Virus record (IMG/VR): IMGVR_UViG_3300031365_000016 | Span: 1-22,217 of that record | DNA: 22,217 bases | Reading direction: 5' to 3' (one strand) | From: a virus | In this document: in pieces, positions 80 to 8,675 of the stretch | How the letters are laid out: each line of letters opens with the position of its first letter | Numbering within the stretch: position 1 is the first letter of the stretch | Notes under the pieces: model-generated | What the model saw: the letters and a program-made list of their open reading frames with translations, nothing else | What the model was told of the DNA's origin: nothing | Database searches by the model: none | Translations under genes and position numbers: made by a program

Positions 80-225
80 CCCCTCCTTTGCCTGAATCTA
101 GTTTGGCCGGGCATCAGAACTTGGCGCTGGTCAGGGATATAGATAATTGACAAAGCACCATTATAGGGCTTACTTACATCGATGCCGGCGAATTTAACCT
201 TAATCTTTGGTAAGTATCCCTTCAT
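76..225 (-). CDS. 49-residue ORF whose N-terminus is encoded by a transposon-like end; probable gene fragment
   Basis: The ORF starts at ATG 225 with a stop codon immediately upstream and runs to a TGA overlapping the next gene. Its first codons (MKGYLP) lie inside the solitary inverted-repeat end at 209-235. Only the sequence from about residue 6 on (KIKVKFAGIDVSKPYNGALS and beyond) would be native phage sequence. No good ribosome site precedes it. The same situation is seen at 2874-3068, where an element end supplies a false N-terminus to a gene fragment. It may therefore be the 3' part of a disrupted gene rather than an intact small protein. No function is recognised. Confidence 0.4.
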   Translation of the reverse strand: MKGYLPKIKVKFAGIDVSKPYNGALSIIYIPDQRQVLMPGQTRFRQRRG

Positions 226-235
226 CTACAGTATT
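209..235 (+). repeat. Solitary IS1595-type inverted-repeat end
   Basis: This 27-base stretch starts GGTAAGTATCCC. It matches the left end of the methyltransferase cassette (7680-7706) at 25 of 27 positions and shares its first 12 bases with both ends of the IS1595 element at 3015-4686. In this orientation the element body would extend rightwards. I could not find a matching right end between here and 3015. If the usual 8-bp duplication applies, the target would be TAATCTTT at 201-208. Confidence 0.6.
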
Positions 236-422
236 ACTCTACTGTGCAGTTAGCCTCAATGGTCTTCTCCATAATGAATCCCACCCGGCGTGTCCTGATT
301 ACCATGCCCATACGGAAATAGAAACCTCTCAAATTGCCTATAAGCCCTGAAGGGGCCACTCGGCTTATATCTGCCAAGGCACAAACGTACTTTCCAGAAG
401 TCAAAACAGATTCGGCTTGCAT
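234..422 (-). CDS. Small protein of unknown function (62 aa)
   Basis: Starts at ATG 422 behind GGAG at 5-base spacing, with an in-frame TAG immediately upstream fixing the start. Sequence begins MQAESVLTSGKYVCALADIS and continues with an RVAPSGL, FYFRMG, RTRRVG pattern ending in IEANCTVE. Its stop lies at the inner edge of the solitary transposon end, so it may be cargo of that lost element. A competing frame, 256-510 (84 codons, very rich in Trp, Tyr and Phe), overlaps it and begins at an ATGA overlap with the DUF5131 stop. I prefer the 62-residue frame on composition, but both could be relevant. No family recognised. Confidence 0.45.
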   Translation of the reverse strand: MQAESVLTSGKYVCALADISRVAPSGLIGNLRGFYFRMGMVIRTRRVGFIMEKTIEANCTVE

Positions 423-506
423 CTACTCTCCAACAGCCCCAACTGCTATACCATCCGAGCCAGACGAATCTGATGTATTGCTCAAGGAACCTGACTATTT
501 TCCCTT

Positions 507-1373
507 TCATTCAATCCTCACAGTATACGGATTTTGACCGGATGCTATTTTGACCGGCATCTCCTGCCTTAATCCGAAATCACCTTTATTCTGAGCCCAT
601 TCTGGATAAAACAGGTCATCTTCCCACAATGGCTTCAGGTTATTCTTCAGGAACACCGGTATCCCAGCCCTGTCCGCTGCCTCGACTATCTCCCTAACCC
701 ACTCTATACGGGGTGGTTTGTAAGGCTTTGTCTGGGCACCGATAATCCACCAGTCAGAGACACATGCCAGATTCCTTAATTCATCCATACCTATCTGGCC
801 GATTAACGGCTCAAAGGATATGAATCTTACGGAGGCTTCAACCATAGAGAGATGGTAAAAAGCCTCGGGCGCAAAGCCATTGGCCGTAACCGTCACGCCC
901 ACCCAGCAGTTATCGGGGAAATAGCTTGGTGAGGTTGGCAAATTCTGGGACTGCTTGGTGAGCAGATAAAACCGGTGCTGTCGGTGCACTTTTACCTGGT
1001 CTATAACTTTATCAGTCCACGCCTTTGGAATCCCAATGCCGAATAGGTCGGACATATCACAGGGAAATATGCCCCTCGGCTCCTTCTGAAATAGTCCTCT
1101 GTCATGGAGTCTTTCCTCCCAGAATCGGGGATAGAAGGGGTTAGATAATGGCTTATCCGCCCAAAACTCATCATCAAATTGACCAACTGGTAATATCTGA
1201 TTATTTAGATACCTCTGCTTCAATCTCCCATTCGCCAGCCTGTGGGCATAACATGGGAAGCCACCACCTTTGCAGAGGCCATCTTTGTGGTTCAGACAAC
1301 CGGTGATTGGATTCCAGGTGTAGCCTTGGCTGCCATCCGGGTTCTTTACCCATTCGATTTTTGTCCTATTCAT
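507..1373 (-). CDS. DUF5131 / phage Gp37-Gp68 family protein (radical-SAM-like)
   Basis: A 288-residue protein with the signature of the phage Gp37/Gp68 family: TKIEW near the N-terminus (residues 4-8), YTWNPITGC (18-26) and a Cys triad C26, C34, C41 (CX7CX6C, the last in CYAHR). Later blocks include IFPCDMSDLFG, RHRFYLLTKQ-like and FISFEPLIG segments, and WWIIGAQT. The family has been linked to the radical-SAM fold, and the triad would ligate an Fe-S cluster. The substrate is unknown. It starts at ATG 1373, eight bases after GGAGG, and overlaps the end of the upstream 69-residue gene by eight bases. It is common in phage accessory regions. The family call is confident; the activity is not. 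Confidence 0.85.
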   Translation of the reverse strand: MNRTKIEWVKNPDGSQGYTWNPITGCLNHKDGLCKGGGFPCYAHRLANGRLKQRYLNNQILPVGQFDDEFWADKPLSNPFYPRFWEERLHDRGLFQKEPRGIFPCDMSDLFGIGIPKAWTDKVIDQVKVHRQHRFYLLTKQSQNLPTSPSYFPDNCWVGVTVTANGFAPEAFYHLSMVEASVRFISFEPLIGQIGMDELRNLACVSDWWIIGAQTKPYKPPRIEWVREIVEAADRAGIPVFLKNNLKPLWEDDLFYPEWAQNKGDFGLRQEMPVKIASGQNPYTVRIE

Positions 1374-2881: not shown

Positions 2882-3014
2882 CGGGCACCTCGATAAGTCT
2901 GCTGCGGGCTATTTCAACATATTCTCTAAATGGATTGTGTAAAGGATTATCTAATAGTTTATTTAGCTTCACCCATGATGCAGCATGATAACCCGCCATG
3001 TAGAATTTATATCC
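2874..3014 (-). pseudogene. 3' half of a small gene split by the IS1595 element
   Basis: This segment encodes GYKFYMAGYHAASWVKLNKL and on to a stop at 2874, overlapping the winged-helix start. An apparent longer ORF reaches ATG 3068, but its first 18 residues are encoded by the IS end (3015-3068) and are not native. The missing 5' half lies on the far side of the element at 4687-4760. Joining the two across one copy of the 8-bp duplication gives one 68-residue frame beginning MMEERIKKMLDEELVKALKA and continuing LAGYKFYMAGYHAASWV. The function of the intact protein is unknown. The chimeric ORF could still be translated from 3068, where a weak AAGGG precedes the ATG. Confidence 0.8.
3007..3014. 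repeat. Left 8-bp target-site duplication (TTATATCC)
   Basis: TTATATCC directly abuts the left inverted repeat at 3015 and recurs at 4687-4694 directly after the right inverted repeat. Eight base pairs is the duplication length typical of IS1595-family elements. Confidence 0.88.
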
Positions 3015-3041
3015 GGTAAGTATCCCTTCATAACCCGTAAT
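3015..3041 (+). repeat. Left terminal inverted repeat of the IS1595 element
   Basis: Starts GGTAAGTATCCC and ends CCCGTAAT. It mirrors 4660-4686 with four mismatches, all in positions 13-19. The first 12 bases are identical in both ends of this IS, in the right end of the methyltransferase cassette and in the solitary end at 209. Confidence 0.88.
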
Positions 3042-3069
3042 CTTTATAAAATCTTTATATTTGAGCATG

Positions 3070-3090
3070 GTTTATCCCTTGACAACCAGT
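3070..3090 (+). repeat. Subterminal repeat overlapping the -35 box
   Basis: TATCCCTTGACA followed by AGTA three bases on is shared with the right end of the methyltransferase cassette (read on the minus strand from 8427). Its TTGACA is the -35 element of the IS promoter. A transposase that binds the terminal repeats could bind here and repress its own promoter. That role is inferred. Confidence 0.5.
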
Positions 3091-3107
3091 ATGAAATAGT
3101 TTATAAT
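3079..3107 (+). promoter_or_regulatory. Consensus sigma-70 promoter of the IS
   Basis: TTGACA at 3079-3084 and TATAAT at 3102-3107 are separated by exactly 17 bases, a perfect match to the sigma-70 consensus. The predicted start, near 3114, precedes the AAAGGAGGT ribosome site of the first passenger gene. It should drive both passenger genes and the transposase. Confidence 0.85.
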
Positions 3108-3138
3108 GAGAGTAGAAATAAAAAAAGGAGGTAAGGAA

Positions 3139-3426
3139 ATGAAACCGATTAGAGACTGGGGTGAGGCACTGAATGGAGCGATAAATGGCGAAATAACTCC
3201 CGAAGAGGCAGCAAAATGGGCAGTCGAAAACAGGGTAGACATCGAATACTACGAACCCAATGAGAGAACCTATAAAATGTACGGCCAGATAATGACCGCC
3301 TACAACGAAATAAAATCCCATACTCCGAGACGACAATCGAACGTACATGTCATTAATGGTACGGAAACCCCCGGCTATCAGGCACACGAAAATGTCGATG
3401 ACGGCCCCACCGGACTCGGACTCTAA
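3139..3426 (+). CDS. IS passenger gene, unknown function (95 aa)
   Basis: ATG 3139 is preceded by AAAGGAGGT. An in-frame ATG at 3106 lies inside the -10 box and cannot be used from this promoter. The protein begins MKPIRDWGEALNGAINGEIT and continues PEEAAKWAVENRVDIEYYEP, an amphipathic helical segment, with a polar, Gly/Asp-rich C-terminus ending GPTGLGL. It has no Cys, membrane span or signal peptide. It is not a recognised part of IS1595 elements, so I call it a passenger or an accessory regulator. It is first in a three-gene rightward unit with the 53-residue protein and the transposase. Confidence 0.7.
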   Translation: MKPIRDWGEALNGAINGEITPEEAAKWAVENRVDIEYYEPNERTYKMYGQIMTAYNEIKSHTPRRQSNVHVINGTETPGYQAHENVDDGPTGLGL

Positions 3427-3450
3427 AATTCTTAGGAAAGGAGGGGAAAA

Positions 3451-3612
3451 ATGATAACTTGCAAACAGTGTCTTGAACGAGAGAAGGAGCTCAAGGGCAC
3501 TAGGGCTGACCAAATCTACGATGTCGGCAATCCTGCAAAAGAAGAAATGGGACACGCCATGTATTTTACCAATGACGGTAAAATAACCCTTTGCATCGCC
3601 AGGAAAAAATAG
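3451..3612 (+). CDS. Small IS passenger protein with CXXC (53 aa)
   Basis: A short ORF behind a very strong AAAGGAGGGG site, 24 bases after the previous stop. It starts MITCKQCLEREKELKGTRAD and has a GHAMYFTNDGKITLCIARKK tail. The N-terminal CKQC and a single C-terminal Cys could contribute to a metal site, but one knuckle is not enough to claim a zinc finger. It lies between the first passenger gene and the transposase and is probably co-transcribed with both. I do not recognise a family. Confidence 0.6.
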   Translation: MITCKQCLEREKELKGTRADQIYDVGNPAKEEMGHAMYFTNDGKITLCIARKK

Positions 3613-3666
3613 CCGACAACGGGGGCTGCGCATCCGAGCCACGCAGAATAATACTAGGAGACCACG

Positions 3667-4563
3667 ATGAAAACCGCCAAATACACGATTAAAGAATTCA
3701 ATGAGCAATTTCCTGATGATAATATATGCCTTGAGTTCATTTTTAAGGCTCGCTATCCGCAGGGTGTATTCTGCCCAGTCTGTCAGAAAGTAACTAAATA
3801 CTATCGCCGGACAGGACGCAAGGCTTATGCCTGCGAGTTCTGTGGTAATCACATCTTCCCCACAGCCGGAACGATATTCCACAAATCGCCAACCCCGCTT
3901 CGCTCGTGGTTTTACGCCATGTTCCTGATGTCCTCCACCCGATGCGGAATCTCGGCTAAACAGCTTGAGCGTGAGCTTGGCGTGACCTATAAGACGGCAT
4001 GGCGCATGTTCAAACAGATACGCTCCCTGATGAATGAGTCCACAAAGCCCATGAAGGGGCATATCGAGGTTGACGAGACATATATCGGCGGTAGGCACTC
4101 TGGTAGTACAGGTCGTGGCGCAGAGGGCAAGACACCAGTAGTCGGTCTGGCGCATCGAGACGAGGGACAAGTCCTTACCTCGGTAGTCAAAGACGTGAAG
4201 GCTCGCACCATCATGCCGATTATCTGGAATAACGTTCCCAGAGGCACAGACAATACCATCCATACCGATGAATTCCCCACCTATACCTATGTTAAGAAAC
4301 TCGGCTACTCTCACGGCATCGTCCAGCACGGCAAGGGTGTCTATGCCGAGGGTATCAACCATGTGAACACAGTTGAGGGCTTTTGGTCGCTGGTCAAGCG
4401 TGGTATCAATGGTGTCTATCATGCCGTATCTCCCAAGTATCTCCAAACGTACCTCAATGAGTATGGCTTTCGTTATAATCACCGGAAGTCTGCGACTCCG
4501 ATGTTTTCTCTGATGATGGAACGGATGCTAGCTTTGGCTGTCCCAAAGGTTGTGAGGCTTTAG
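3667..4563 (+). CDS. IS1595-family (ISXO2-like) transposase
   Basis: A 298-residue transposase. The N-terminal zinc ribbon has C36-PV-C39 and C56-EF-C59. An HTH-like segment follows (SAKQLERELGVTYKTAWRMF, residues 97-116). The ISXO2-like catalytic domain shows VDETYIGG (first acidic residue D136), HTDEFPTY (D201) and HVNTVEGFWSLVKRG (N234, E237), then the YNHR block near residue 270. These are the DD-N/E residues of the family, which moves by cut-and-paste and makes 8-bp duplications. Length is normal and no lesion is visible. GGAG precedes ATG 3667. Its 3' end overlaps a small gene on the other strand. It could act on all GGTAAG-type ends in the window. Confidence 0.93.
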   Translation: MKTAKYTIKEFNEQFPDDNICLEFIFKARYPQGVFCPVCQKVTKYYRRTGRKAYACEFCGNHIFPTAGTIFHKSPTPLRSWFYAMFLMSSTRCGISAKQLERELGVTYKTAWRMFKQIRSLMNESTKPMKGHIEVDETYIGGRHSGSTGRGAEGKTPVVGLAHRDEGQVLTSVVKDVKARTIMPIIWNNVPRGTDNTIHTDEFPTYTYVKKLGYSHGIVQHGKGVYAEGINHVNTVEGFWSLVKRGINGVYHAVSPKYLQTYLNEYGFRYNHRKSATPMFSLMMERMLALAVPKVVRL

Positions 4564-4612
4564 TGAGTAGTTTTTCAAATTCTTTTTCGGTTAATTTCTT
4601 CTTTCGTCCCAT
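4454..4612 (-). CDS. Small Lys-rich protein overlapping the transposase end (52 aa)
   Basis: ATG 4612 has AAGGGGGT seven bases upstream; an ATG at 4645 would add 11 residues. The sequence starts MGRKKKLTEKEFEKLLTKAS and goes on QPLGQPKLASVPSSEKTSES. The charged helical N-terminus and Pro/Ser tail look like a real small protein rather than a chance antisense frame. About 110 bases overlap the transposase 3' end in the opposite direction, so transcription of one would produce antisense to the other. It lies wholly inside the IS. I believe similar small ORFs accompany some related elements, but this is recollection and unchecked. Confidence 0.5.
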   Translation of the reverse strand: MGRKKKLTEKEFEKLLTKASQPLGQPKLASVPSSEKTSESQTSGDYNESHTH

Positions 4613-4659
4613 TTCTATTACCCCCTTTTCTTCTAATTTTAACATGGTTTTGAAGCTAT

Positions 4660-4686
4660 ATTACGGGGTGAGAGGGGATACTTACC
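4660..4686 (-). repeat. Right terminal inverted repeat of the IS1595 element
   Basis: Read on the minus strand from 4686 it starts GGTAAGTATCCCC and ends CCCCGTAAT. It matches the left end at 23 of 27 positions and is followed immediately by the second TTATATCC. Confidence 0.88.
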
Positions 4687-4694
4687 TTATATCC
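4687..4694. repeat. Right 8-bp target-site duplication (TTATATCC)
   Basis: Second copy of the duplication next to 4686. On the coding strand of the interrupted gene both copies read GGATATAA in the same reading frame (Gly-Tyr-Lys), which allows exact reconstruction of the target gene. Confidence 0.88.
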
Positions 4695-4770: not shown

Positions 4771-5175
4771 TCAAGCATCGGGCACCTCATCAAATATAGA
4801 TTTGGGGTCACATCCGCATATCCGGCACCGACCCGACTCAGTTAATTCGTGGACATGGAATGGTGCTAATTCTGTCTGTAGTATGAATTTATGGAAATAT
4901 ACTTTCTGCCCCGGCACATATCCTTTTCTCGGGTGTAATCGCTCCCAAACCTTTGTAAATTCAAAGTCTGAGTTGAATCCTTCCTCCAAATAATGCATGT
5001 AGGCAACTGAAGATAGAGATATAAGATGGACATCAGTGAGTATAAATTGCCTCCCGAACGCCTCAAAATAGTCGCCGGGCCAGCCATAACGCTTAGTCCT
5101 TGATGTAGCCGACTTTTTACCAGTGAGCATCAATAGTTCAAACTCAGGCAAAAATGGAATATTAACTTTTTTCAT
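4771..5175 (-). CDS. ASCH-domain protein with C-terminal Cys cluster (134 aa)
   Basis: The N-terminal half has the ASCH pattern: a buried LLMLTGKKSATSRTKRYGWP stretch (residues 14-33), then GDYFEAFGRQFILTDV and later PGQKVYFHKF. ASCH domains are small beta barrels related to PUA; some members bind RNA and some hydrolyse modified nucleosides, and phages often carry them. The C-terminus adds C117, C120 and C122 (GRCRICGCDPKS), with H107 and H109 just before, a possible metal site. GGAGA lies before ATG 5175, and the start overlaps the upstream KOW-like gene by 14 bases. The fold is fairly secure; the substrate is unknown. Confidence 0.75.
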   Translation of the reverse strand: MKKVNIPFLPEFELLMLTGKKSATSRTKRYGWPGDYFEAFGRQFILTDVHLISLSSVAYMHYLEEGFNSDFEFTKVWERLHPRKGYVPGQKVYFHKFILQTELAPFHVHELTESGRCRICGCDPKSIFDEVPDA

Positions 5176-7440: not shown

Positions 7441-7662
7441 CTAATCCGGCAGCTCCATGGCCAGCTGGGGACAGGCCATCATCACATCCACCTTCTGATT
7501 GCCTTTCAGGGCCTCATGGACTTTATCGAACTGCCCGGCCAGCGTCTCGCACTCGAACTTGACGGCCGTAATGATGAAGGCCTGTTCGTCTCTGATGACC
7601 TTTTTCGTCTTCGTCTCCAGGTTGCTGATATTCTGGACGGTAACTTTCAATTCTCTGGCCAT
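7441..7662 (-). CDS. Small hypothetical protein (73 aa)
   Basis: ATG 7662 follows an excellent AAAAAAAGGAGG site. The protein starts MARELKVTVQNISNLETKTK and has a predicted mixed beta/alpha character with a hydrophobic middle (QAFIITAVKFECETLAG). No motif is recognised. The A-run of its ribosome site was the target of the methyltransferase cassette, which now separates this gene from the preceding one (8433-8675). Before the insertion that stop and this start would have been about 19 bases apart. The gene remains intact because the 8-bp duplication regenerated the site. Confidence 0.7.
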   Translation of the reverse strand: MARELKVTVQNISNLETKTKKVIRDEQAFIITAVKFECETLAGQFDKVHEALKGNQKVDVMMACPQLAMELPD

Positions 7663-7671
7663 GGCGCCTCC

Positions 7672-7679
7672 TTTTTTTA
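7672..7679. repeat. Left 8-bp target duplication of the methyltransferase cassette (TTTTTTTA)
   Basis: TTTTTTTA abuts the cassette end at 7680 and recurs at 8428-8435 directly after the other end. Low complexity makes it less informative than the IS duplication, but on both sides the flanks join into one sensible stop/ribosome-site sequence. Confidence 0.7.
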
Positions 7680-7704
7680 CGTAACTATCCCTTCATCTAC
7701 AGTA
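7680..7704 (+). repeat. Left inverted repeat of the methyltransferase cassette
   Basis: Starts CGTAACTATCCC and ends CTACAGTA. It matches 8403-8427 read backwards at 20 of 25 positions. Extended by two bases it matches the solitary end at 209-235 at 25 of 27 positions. Confidence 0.78.
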
Positions 7705-7705
7705 T

Positions 7706-8392
7706 TCATATCTCCAACTTCATTATTGATTGACTACACCTTTTAGCGGCAATCTCACAATATTTTTCTTCTATCTCGATGCCGATACATTTACGGTTGA
7801 GTTTCTTGCTTGCTAATAATGTTGAGCCAGCCCCCATATAAGCATCTAGTATTATTGCAGGAGAGTTCCCCCATTTATCAATTTGTAATATAACCCACAT
7901 TATTACAGATACTGGTTTTTGCGTGGGATGGTAATGTTCAACTTTTTCGCTATCACGATTATATCCATTCCAACGGTGTTGATATAGGCGTACACCTTTT
8001 ATACAGTTAGACCATGCCAATTCACAGTCTGATTGGTCGTTTTGACCCATTCCATACCTTTTATCCCAAACAATCCAGCCAGATGATACGGGTAATTTAT
8101 CTGCATAATAATGCCCCCCCCACAATATAAGTTGTGTATTGAGATTAAGTAAATGAACAGGATTAAATGGTTGCTCATCCCCATATACGGGGAGATAATC
8201 TATTCGACAAACACCCCTTCCTCTTGAAGCATAGTCAGTAGGTAAATTTATCCCATACGGCGGGTCAGTGAGTACAAGATCTATACTTTTTTCAGGGATT
8301 AACGGCAATACCTCACGGCAGTCTCCGTGTATGATATAGACCGCATCATCTGAATAATAGGCTGACGGTAATTCTAATCCGTTCCAGTTCAT
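7706..8392 (-). CDS. DNA methyltransferase, N4/N6 amino type (228 aa)
   Basis: The catalytic motif DPPY is at residues 43-46 (LTDPPYGINLP) and the cofactor-binding motif DAYMGAGST at 183-191, near the C-terminus, with HPTQKP at 155-160. This order (motif IV first, motif I last) is that of the beta-class family PF01555, which methylates N6 of adenine or N4 of cytosine. It is short for the family, with a small target-recognition region (about 50-150), but all key motifs are intact. TAGGAG precedes ATG 8392. No restriction enzyme is adjacent, so it is an orphan methylase that may protect phage DNA from host restriction. It is the sole cargo of a transposon-like cassette. Specificity cannot be read. 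Confidence 0.92.
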   Translation of the reverse strand: MNWNGLELPSAYYSDDAVYIIHGDCREVLPLIPEKSIDLVLTDPPYGINLPTDYASRGRGVCRIDYLPVYGDEQPFNPVHLLNLNTQLILWGGHYYADKLPVSSGWIVWDKRYGMGQNDQSDCELAWSNCIKGVRLYQHRWNGYNRDSEKVEHYHPTQKPVSVIMWVILQIDKWGNSPAIILDAYMGAGSTLLASKKLNRKCIGIEIEEKYCEIAAKRCSQSIMKLEI

Positions 8393-8402
8393 TCCAGTCT
8401 CC

Positions 8403-8427
8403 TACTGTATGTCAAGGGATACTTACC
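8403..8427 (-). repeat. Right inverted repeat of the methyltransferase cassette
   Basis: Read on the minus strand from 8427 it begins GGTAAGTATCCCTTGACA. The first 14 bases are identical to the left end of the IS1595 element. It also holds a TTGACA but no suitable -10 before the methyltransferase start. Confidence 0.78.
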
Positions 8428-8435
8428 TTTTTTTA
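8428..8435. repeat. Right 8-bp target duplication of the methyltransferase cassette (TTTTTTTA)
   Basis: Second copy of TTTTTTTA. On the coding strand it is TAAAAAAA, whose TAA is the stop codon of the gene at 8433-8675. Removing the cassette rejoins this stop to the AAAAAAAGGAGG ribosome site of the next gene. Confidence 0.7.
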
Positions 8436-8675
8436 TAAGCCCTCGCGGGCCATAATCTCGTTGATTTCCTTGTCGATAGGGTTCCGGCTGAGCGATATCG
8501 CCCTCTGCTCTATCATCGCCTTGAGATACTGGTCATGCAGTAGCCAACCTTTATTTAGACCCGTCAGGTAGGCCTGCTGGACCATATTGTTTATCGGCCG
8601 GCGGACGAAGCGGTATAACAGTTTCATCAGGGCTTTATCGATTACAAAATGTGCTTTCCATATCACGATTTTCAT
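8433..8675 (-). CDS. Hypothetical protein, basic and helical (80 aa)
   Basis: ATG 8675 follows AAGGAG by six bases and lies inside the end of the upstream gene. The protein begins MKIVIWKAHFVIDKALMKLL and continues YRFVRRPINNMVQQAYLTGL, with a polar C-terminus (NPIDKEINEIMAREGL). It is predicted to be mainly helical with a basic face and no clear membrane span. Its TAA stop is part of the target site used by the methyltransferase cassette. No family recognised. Confidence 0.65.
   Translation of the reverse strand: MKIVIWKAHFVIDKALMKLLYRFVRRPINNMVQQAYLTGLNKGWLLHDQYLKAMIEQRAISLSRNPIDKEINEIMAREGL

Follow-up and report, generated by a model that had tools for sequence, protein, structure and literature searches.

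How does a single DNA methyltransferase gene come to lie between ends of an insertion sequence (IS) with no transposase beside it? The question is raised by a virus record, IMGVR_UViG_3300031365_000016, whose entire 22.2 kb (22,217 nucleotides) is called the window here, and which carries tail, head-tail adaptor, tape-measure and ParB-like genes on the minus strand. Positions 7680-8427 hold a unit of 748 bp whose inverted ends agree at 20 of 25 positions. On both sides of it (7672-7679 and 8428-8435) stands TTTTTTTA, an 8-bp direct repeat without mismatch that is taken as the target duplication, and the right copy of this repeat includes the stop codon of the upstream gene. The left end (LE, 7680-7704, plus strand), CGTAACTATCCCTTCATCTACAGTA, belongs to a cassette-type subtype common to L097, L195, L198, L202, L203/L206, L209 and L216. 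The right end (RE, 8403-8427, minus strand) reads inward as GGTAAGTATCCCTTGACATACAGTA, contains TTGACA and has its first 14 bases in common with the left end of an IS1595 element that starts at 3015. The coordinates, the flanking repeats, the 20 matching positions and the 14 shared bases had all been put forward in a sequence-only reading of this DNA and were correct on re-check; the neighbouring IS1595 element that it described is present, but lies 3.0 kb away (from its right end at 4686 to the cassette) and not 3.6 kb. Two 8-mers at a fixed distance match at 8/8 with a rate of 3e-5, as computed in the window, and in this case the matching 8-mers directly flank two 25-bp ends similar to those of an IS1595 element of the same window with its own 8/8 repeat. 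Comparison with other phages, given below, is the stronger evidence against chance.

The unit contains one intact gene (7706-8392, minus strand) for an N6/N4 DNA methyltransferase of 228 aa (PF01555, E 1.3e-19; phrog_67, E 3.5e-41), with the DPPYG motif IV ahead of the DAYMGAGS motif I. As had been claimed, the gene almost fills the unit (92%), and no transposase ORF is encoded within 7680-8427. Its stop is 1 base from the left repeat and its start 10 bases from the right repeat. An AGGAG ribosome-binding site, recognized in the sequence at the inner edge of the right end (8399-8403, minus strand), is located 6 bases ahead of the ATG. The methylase is an orphan: neither of the two genes flanking the cassette matched an endonuclease family, so that a type II restriction-modification system is not seen here. 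Its probable role is to shield phage DNA from host restriction or to modify this DNA in some other way, and the antirestriction-type role proposed earlier is no more than plausible. Among its 80 best viral relatives (35-56% identical) none has the end pair around the gene, and only L144/L181 have an IS1595 element, separate from the methylase and adjoining it.

Excision of the unit together with one repeat yields TTATAAAAAAAGGAGGCGCCATGG, a stop followed by a ribosome site, just as the sequence-only reading had predicted, and the uninterrupted junction that it expected in a related phage was found in the contig L202. There, homologues of the upstream gene (80 aa, 8433-8675, minus strand) and of the downstream gene (73 aa, 7441-7662, minus strand) are directly joined in the same order, with identities of 42% and 71%, the latter to the gene at 4776-5012. 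The L202 junction consists of a stop, a short leader with GAAGGAGG and an ATG; the window without the unit and one repeat has the same layout, a stop and then AAAAAGGAGGCGCCATGG. Insertion disrupted neither neighbour, the upstream gene being intact despite it. A search for further empty sites by means of the 73-aa gene returned L202 only. An ordinary phage methylase with repeats arising by chance was ruled out by the empty sites together with the family of units described below.

A candidate source of transposase is the complete IS1595 element of 1672 bp (3015-4686, plus strand), flanked by the direct repeat TTATATCC (8/8, at 3007-3014 and 4687-4694). Its transposase (298 aa, 3667-4563, plus strand; NF033547, 208.8 bits; PF12762 and PF12760) is intact and keeps the catalytic residues D136/D201/E237 (DDE). 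Two passenger ORFs that belong to no family, of 106 aa (3106-3426, plus strand) and 53 aa (3451-3612, plus strand), are 100% identical in the IS of the virus contig L210. This second copy (99-1770), also of 1672 bp, is 99-100% identical to the first for 1000 bp and then mostly 70-77%, with the switch point inside the transposase gene, so that these elements also recombine. The window IS DNA gave no match to plasmids. IS1595 elements were also observed in the virus contigs L052 (2847-5452, with two unknown proteins extra) and L144 (5055-6960, with an extra DUF3800 gene), each with perfect 8-bp repeats. The cassette LE CATCTACAGTA diverges from both ends of the window IS past base 17, and thus the transposase that acts on the cassette may be another than that of the window. 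The RE is identical at 25/25 positions to one end of L227 (from STA_40), an autonomous passenger-carrying IS1595 whose transposase is 81% identical to that of the window. A methylase passenger lies right inside one end of L227, with the end-RBS-ATG layout of the window cassette, and its flanks, TAGATAGA and CAAAAAGT, show no direct repeat. L227 could illustrate the look of a parent, a passenger-carrying IS1595 that yields a cassette upon transposase loss.

The existence of such elements in the same group, with a methylase in the same layout, would also fit a history in which a full passenger-carrying IS1595 inserted into the phage and lost its transposase later by internal deletion, so that the unit never moved as a cassette. 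Direct repeats alone do not date the loss, and for any single unit taken alone a loss after insertion is possible. We nevertheless consider in-place decay unlikely. The window methylase is just 26% identical to that of L227, and the 15 occurrences of the cassette-type LE all lack a transposase (0/15, in the available inner sequence of up to 3 kb), with none on an autonomous element, so that the cassettes seem to form a separate lineage. Pairwise identities among the methylases of the window, L209 and L227 are 22-26%, and the L211 methylase matches these three only over a stretch of 67-74 residues; being so divergent, they were probably acquired separately.

Viral contigs were scanned with the end pattern and the ends were then paired with 8-bp repeats. 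As the sequence-only reading had anticipated, other units with the same ends and no transposase exist, and they hold different single genes. Nine further two-ended units with closely similar ends and unrelated genes were found in viral contigs and in one Dehalococcoidales MAG, and six other transposase-less units have perfect 8-bp repeats. These are a unit of 779 bp in L097 (repeat AGTTATTT, 179-aa unknown protein), one of 300 bp in L202 (repeat TATATATA, no long ORF), one of 841 bp in L211 (repeat TTTATTTC, another methylase, with ends of a related but distinct subtype) and three nested in L209. The latter comprise inner units of 697 bp (repeat TAGTGTGA, a methylase different from that of the window) and 326 bp (repeat TTGATAAA, a 74-aa zinc-ribbon-like protein), and an outer composite of 1438 bp that holds both (repeat TATATATA). 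Matching repeats or one end are missing in the units of L195, L203/L206, L198 and L216; those without matching direct repeats are L195, L203/L206 and two of the L216 units. L216, which is phage-like DNA of the Dehalococcoidales MAG STA_40, has up to five units, with cargo that includes a C5-methylase-like gene. The ends are shared between units over about 24-49 bp and are often 96-100% identical around unrelated genes, while the cargo is not shared. In the genome collection the ends occurred only in STA_40, which was also the only one to have them out of 393 Dehalococcoidia genomes, and they are thus known mainly from virus contigs; this single genome suggests a Dehalococcoidales host. A search for the L209 methylase elsewhere returned the L209 contig only. 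A Dam-like reading of a 39-aa ORF in L202 had no Pfam support and was dropped, and end pairs in L026, L030 and L051, with one good core and no repeats, were taken as chance.

Ends of this kind might be thought to be phage regulatory sequences, with a promoter element and ribosome site before genes and a terminator-like element behind, instead of transposon termini. The TTGACA in the right end with AGGAG after it, the co-directionality of cargo and neighbouring genes in clear cases and the proximity of several L216 units without clean repeats agree with this. It is nonetheless highly improbable, given the 8/8 direct repeats at seven units, the empty sites, the restored ORF described below and the occurrence of these termini on transposase-encoding IS1595 elements.

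The most informative comparison is between L209 and L210, two contigs from different assemblies that are 99.9-100% identical over 5.7 kb. The 1438-bp composite of L209 sits at TATATATA in the leader of an HNH-like gene and is absent from L210; the full IS1595 of L210 sits at ACCTATTA in this leader and is absent from L209. The two insertion points are 6 bp apart. When each insertion is removed with one repeat, the two junctions are identical, ACGACCTATTATATATAAAGGAAAGAAGACCTGATG. This reciprocal difference is almost a direct demonstration that units without a transposase are mobile, most probably through an IS1595 transposase acting in trans. Furthermore, the outer unit of L209 is interrupted twice, and removal of the inner units and one copy of each of their repeats restores a unit of 399 bp with a single ORF of 116 aa whose stop lies just before the LE, as in other units, a result difficult to explain if the inner units did not each insert as a whole. 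Loss of the transposase in place would require at least three independent, gene-trimming, nested deletions in L209, and is also at odds with a transposase-less composite that is present in one and absent from the other of two near-identical phages. The leader of the HNH-like gene, ACCTATTATATATA, has different cassettes or IS in four virus contigs (L202 at 8757, L209 at 201, L210 at 91 and L198 at 3664). L198 and L202 have other cassettes at this same leader, which is thus an insertion hot spot.

The last 100 bases of the L209 composite are repeated exactly just upstream. Comparison of positions 1-200 with 1553-1652 reveals two copies of the outer cassette whose inner cargo differs at one and the same TTGATAAA point, which looks like an exchange of cargo by way of the cassette ends. 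The left copy is truncated by the edge of the contig, which lies in a repeat. Cargo might then be moved by homologous recombination between the ends, used as short homology arms, besides transposition or now more than by it. The copies in L209, the near identity of ends around unrelated genes, the mosaic IS copies of the window and L210 and the several units without direct repeats point in this direction. Such recombination leaves both the exact 8-bp duplications and the presence and absence of insertions in L209 and L210 unexplained, and we regard it as a rather unlikely route.

The reading that we favour, with a probability of about 0.86, is that of a transposable cassette which is non-autonomous, carries a single gene between IS1595 ends, is of the type of the mobile insertion cassettes (MICs), and is most likely moved by an IS1595 transposase in trans. 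Its ends, the 8-bp duplications, the empty sites, the lack of a transposase and the recurrence of standard ends around unrelated genes are seen in the sequences themselves. Action in trans is the best inference because no unit encodes a transposase and intact IS1595 transposases are found in the same or sister phages. Encoded by an element of the same phage or cell, the transposase would bind both cassette ends and insert the unit at A/T-rich targets of 8 bp; direct repeats of this length and composition characterize ISApl4 of the IS1595 family (PMC12561309). Insertion would take place into A/T-rich leaders between co-directional phage genes, and the right end would bring a ribosome-binding site, so that the cargo gene could be translated from the operon of the recipient phage. 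More tentatively, and with somewhat less than an even chance, the units may form a gene-cassette system of phages of uncultured Dehalococcoidales or similar hosts, in which very small cassettes with fixed transposon ends and a ribosome site of their own exchange single genes, in many cases for DNA methylases, between phages by means of an IS1595 transposase in trans and of recombination between standard ends at shared hot spots. If true, compact phage genomes could gain single accessory genes without a transposase of their own, by borrowing one, and these could include methylases that may defeat restriction. Such cargo could easily be searched for by means of the fixed ends, and pairs of empty and filled phages make the cassette model directly testable.

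Among known systems, the closest is MIC231, which together with IS231 (IS4 family) shows IS ends around a passenger gene and no transposase, and which can be activated in trans by a related transposase. The MIC class is named in PMC3129680, and MIC231 is cited in PMC2266710. The window cassette shares this layout of IS ends and passenger gene without a transposase; its ends match autonomous IS (25/25 with L227 for the RE, 14 bases with the window IS), and its target duplication has the length of that of the parent IS, 8 bp at both the cassette and the window IS. It differs from MIC231 in its IS1595-type ends, its 8-bp duplications and its phage location. The units here are also small (about 230-850 bp) and have a terminal ribosome site, and one end subtype comes with several unrelated cargos and with nesting. 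Integron gene cassettes likewise combine standard ends with varied cargo, each unit holding a single gene with little DNA to spare. The likeness of the window-type units to them on these points is an analogy: no integrase or attC was seen, the ends are DDE-type with 8-bp target duplications, and the units nest rather than line up at one attI. Transporter IS (tIS) of the IS1595 family, such as tISCpe8 and MTnSag1, carry passenger genes and have ends roughly 25 bp long (PMC5704250). The cassette resembles them in its family, end length and passenger gene, but lacks a transposase and a mobilisation gene. Transposase and passengers occur together in the window IS and in L227, a true passenger-carrying IS1595 of the same group, and a DDE transposase is found inside 3015-4686 and not inside 7680-8427. 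The cassette is also short, non-autonomous and has IS-derived ends, like a MITE, but MITEs have no coding capacity and here an intact gene for 228 aa fills the unit; the 300-bp unit of L202 comes closer to a MITE. MICs and IS1595 passenger elements are thus already known. What appears to be new for MIC-type units is that they have IS1595 ends, occur in phages and combine standard ends with varied cargo. Neither IS1595-ended MICs of phages nor a set of cassettes with one end type and many cargos turned up in the open-access papers searched.

The window also contains a decayed third cassette (209-527, minus strand) that was missed in the sequence-only reading. Its orphan LE at 209-233 is intact and 25/26 identical to the LE of the methylase cassette; the terminal right end is lost, an inner right-side part, TCCGTATACTGTGAGGATT, remains near 508-527, and no single ORF spans the unit. 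The last 47 bases of this relic equal the end of a unit in L209. Inner palindromes occur in one subtype of the ends (ACAGTATCCGTATACTGT on the right side and ACAGTAGAGTAATACTGT on the left side), as seen in L195 (3240-3288), L209 (1264-1320) and the window (505-530). In L198 (3674-4500), a 258-aa ORF containing many QPAWAEYEKIE-like repeats is immediately followed by a cassette-type LE, and no right end was found. Finally, in L216 (950-2410) the outer flanks of three successive units have TTGATATGA in common, 4-5 bases from the end motifs, possibly a displaced duplication.
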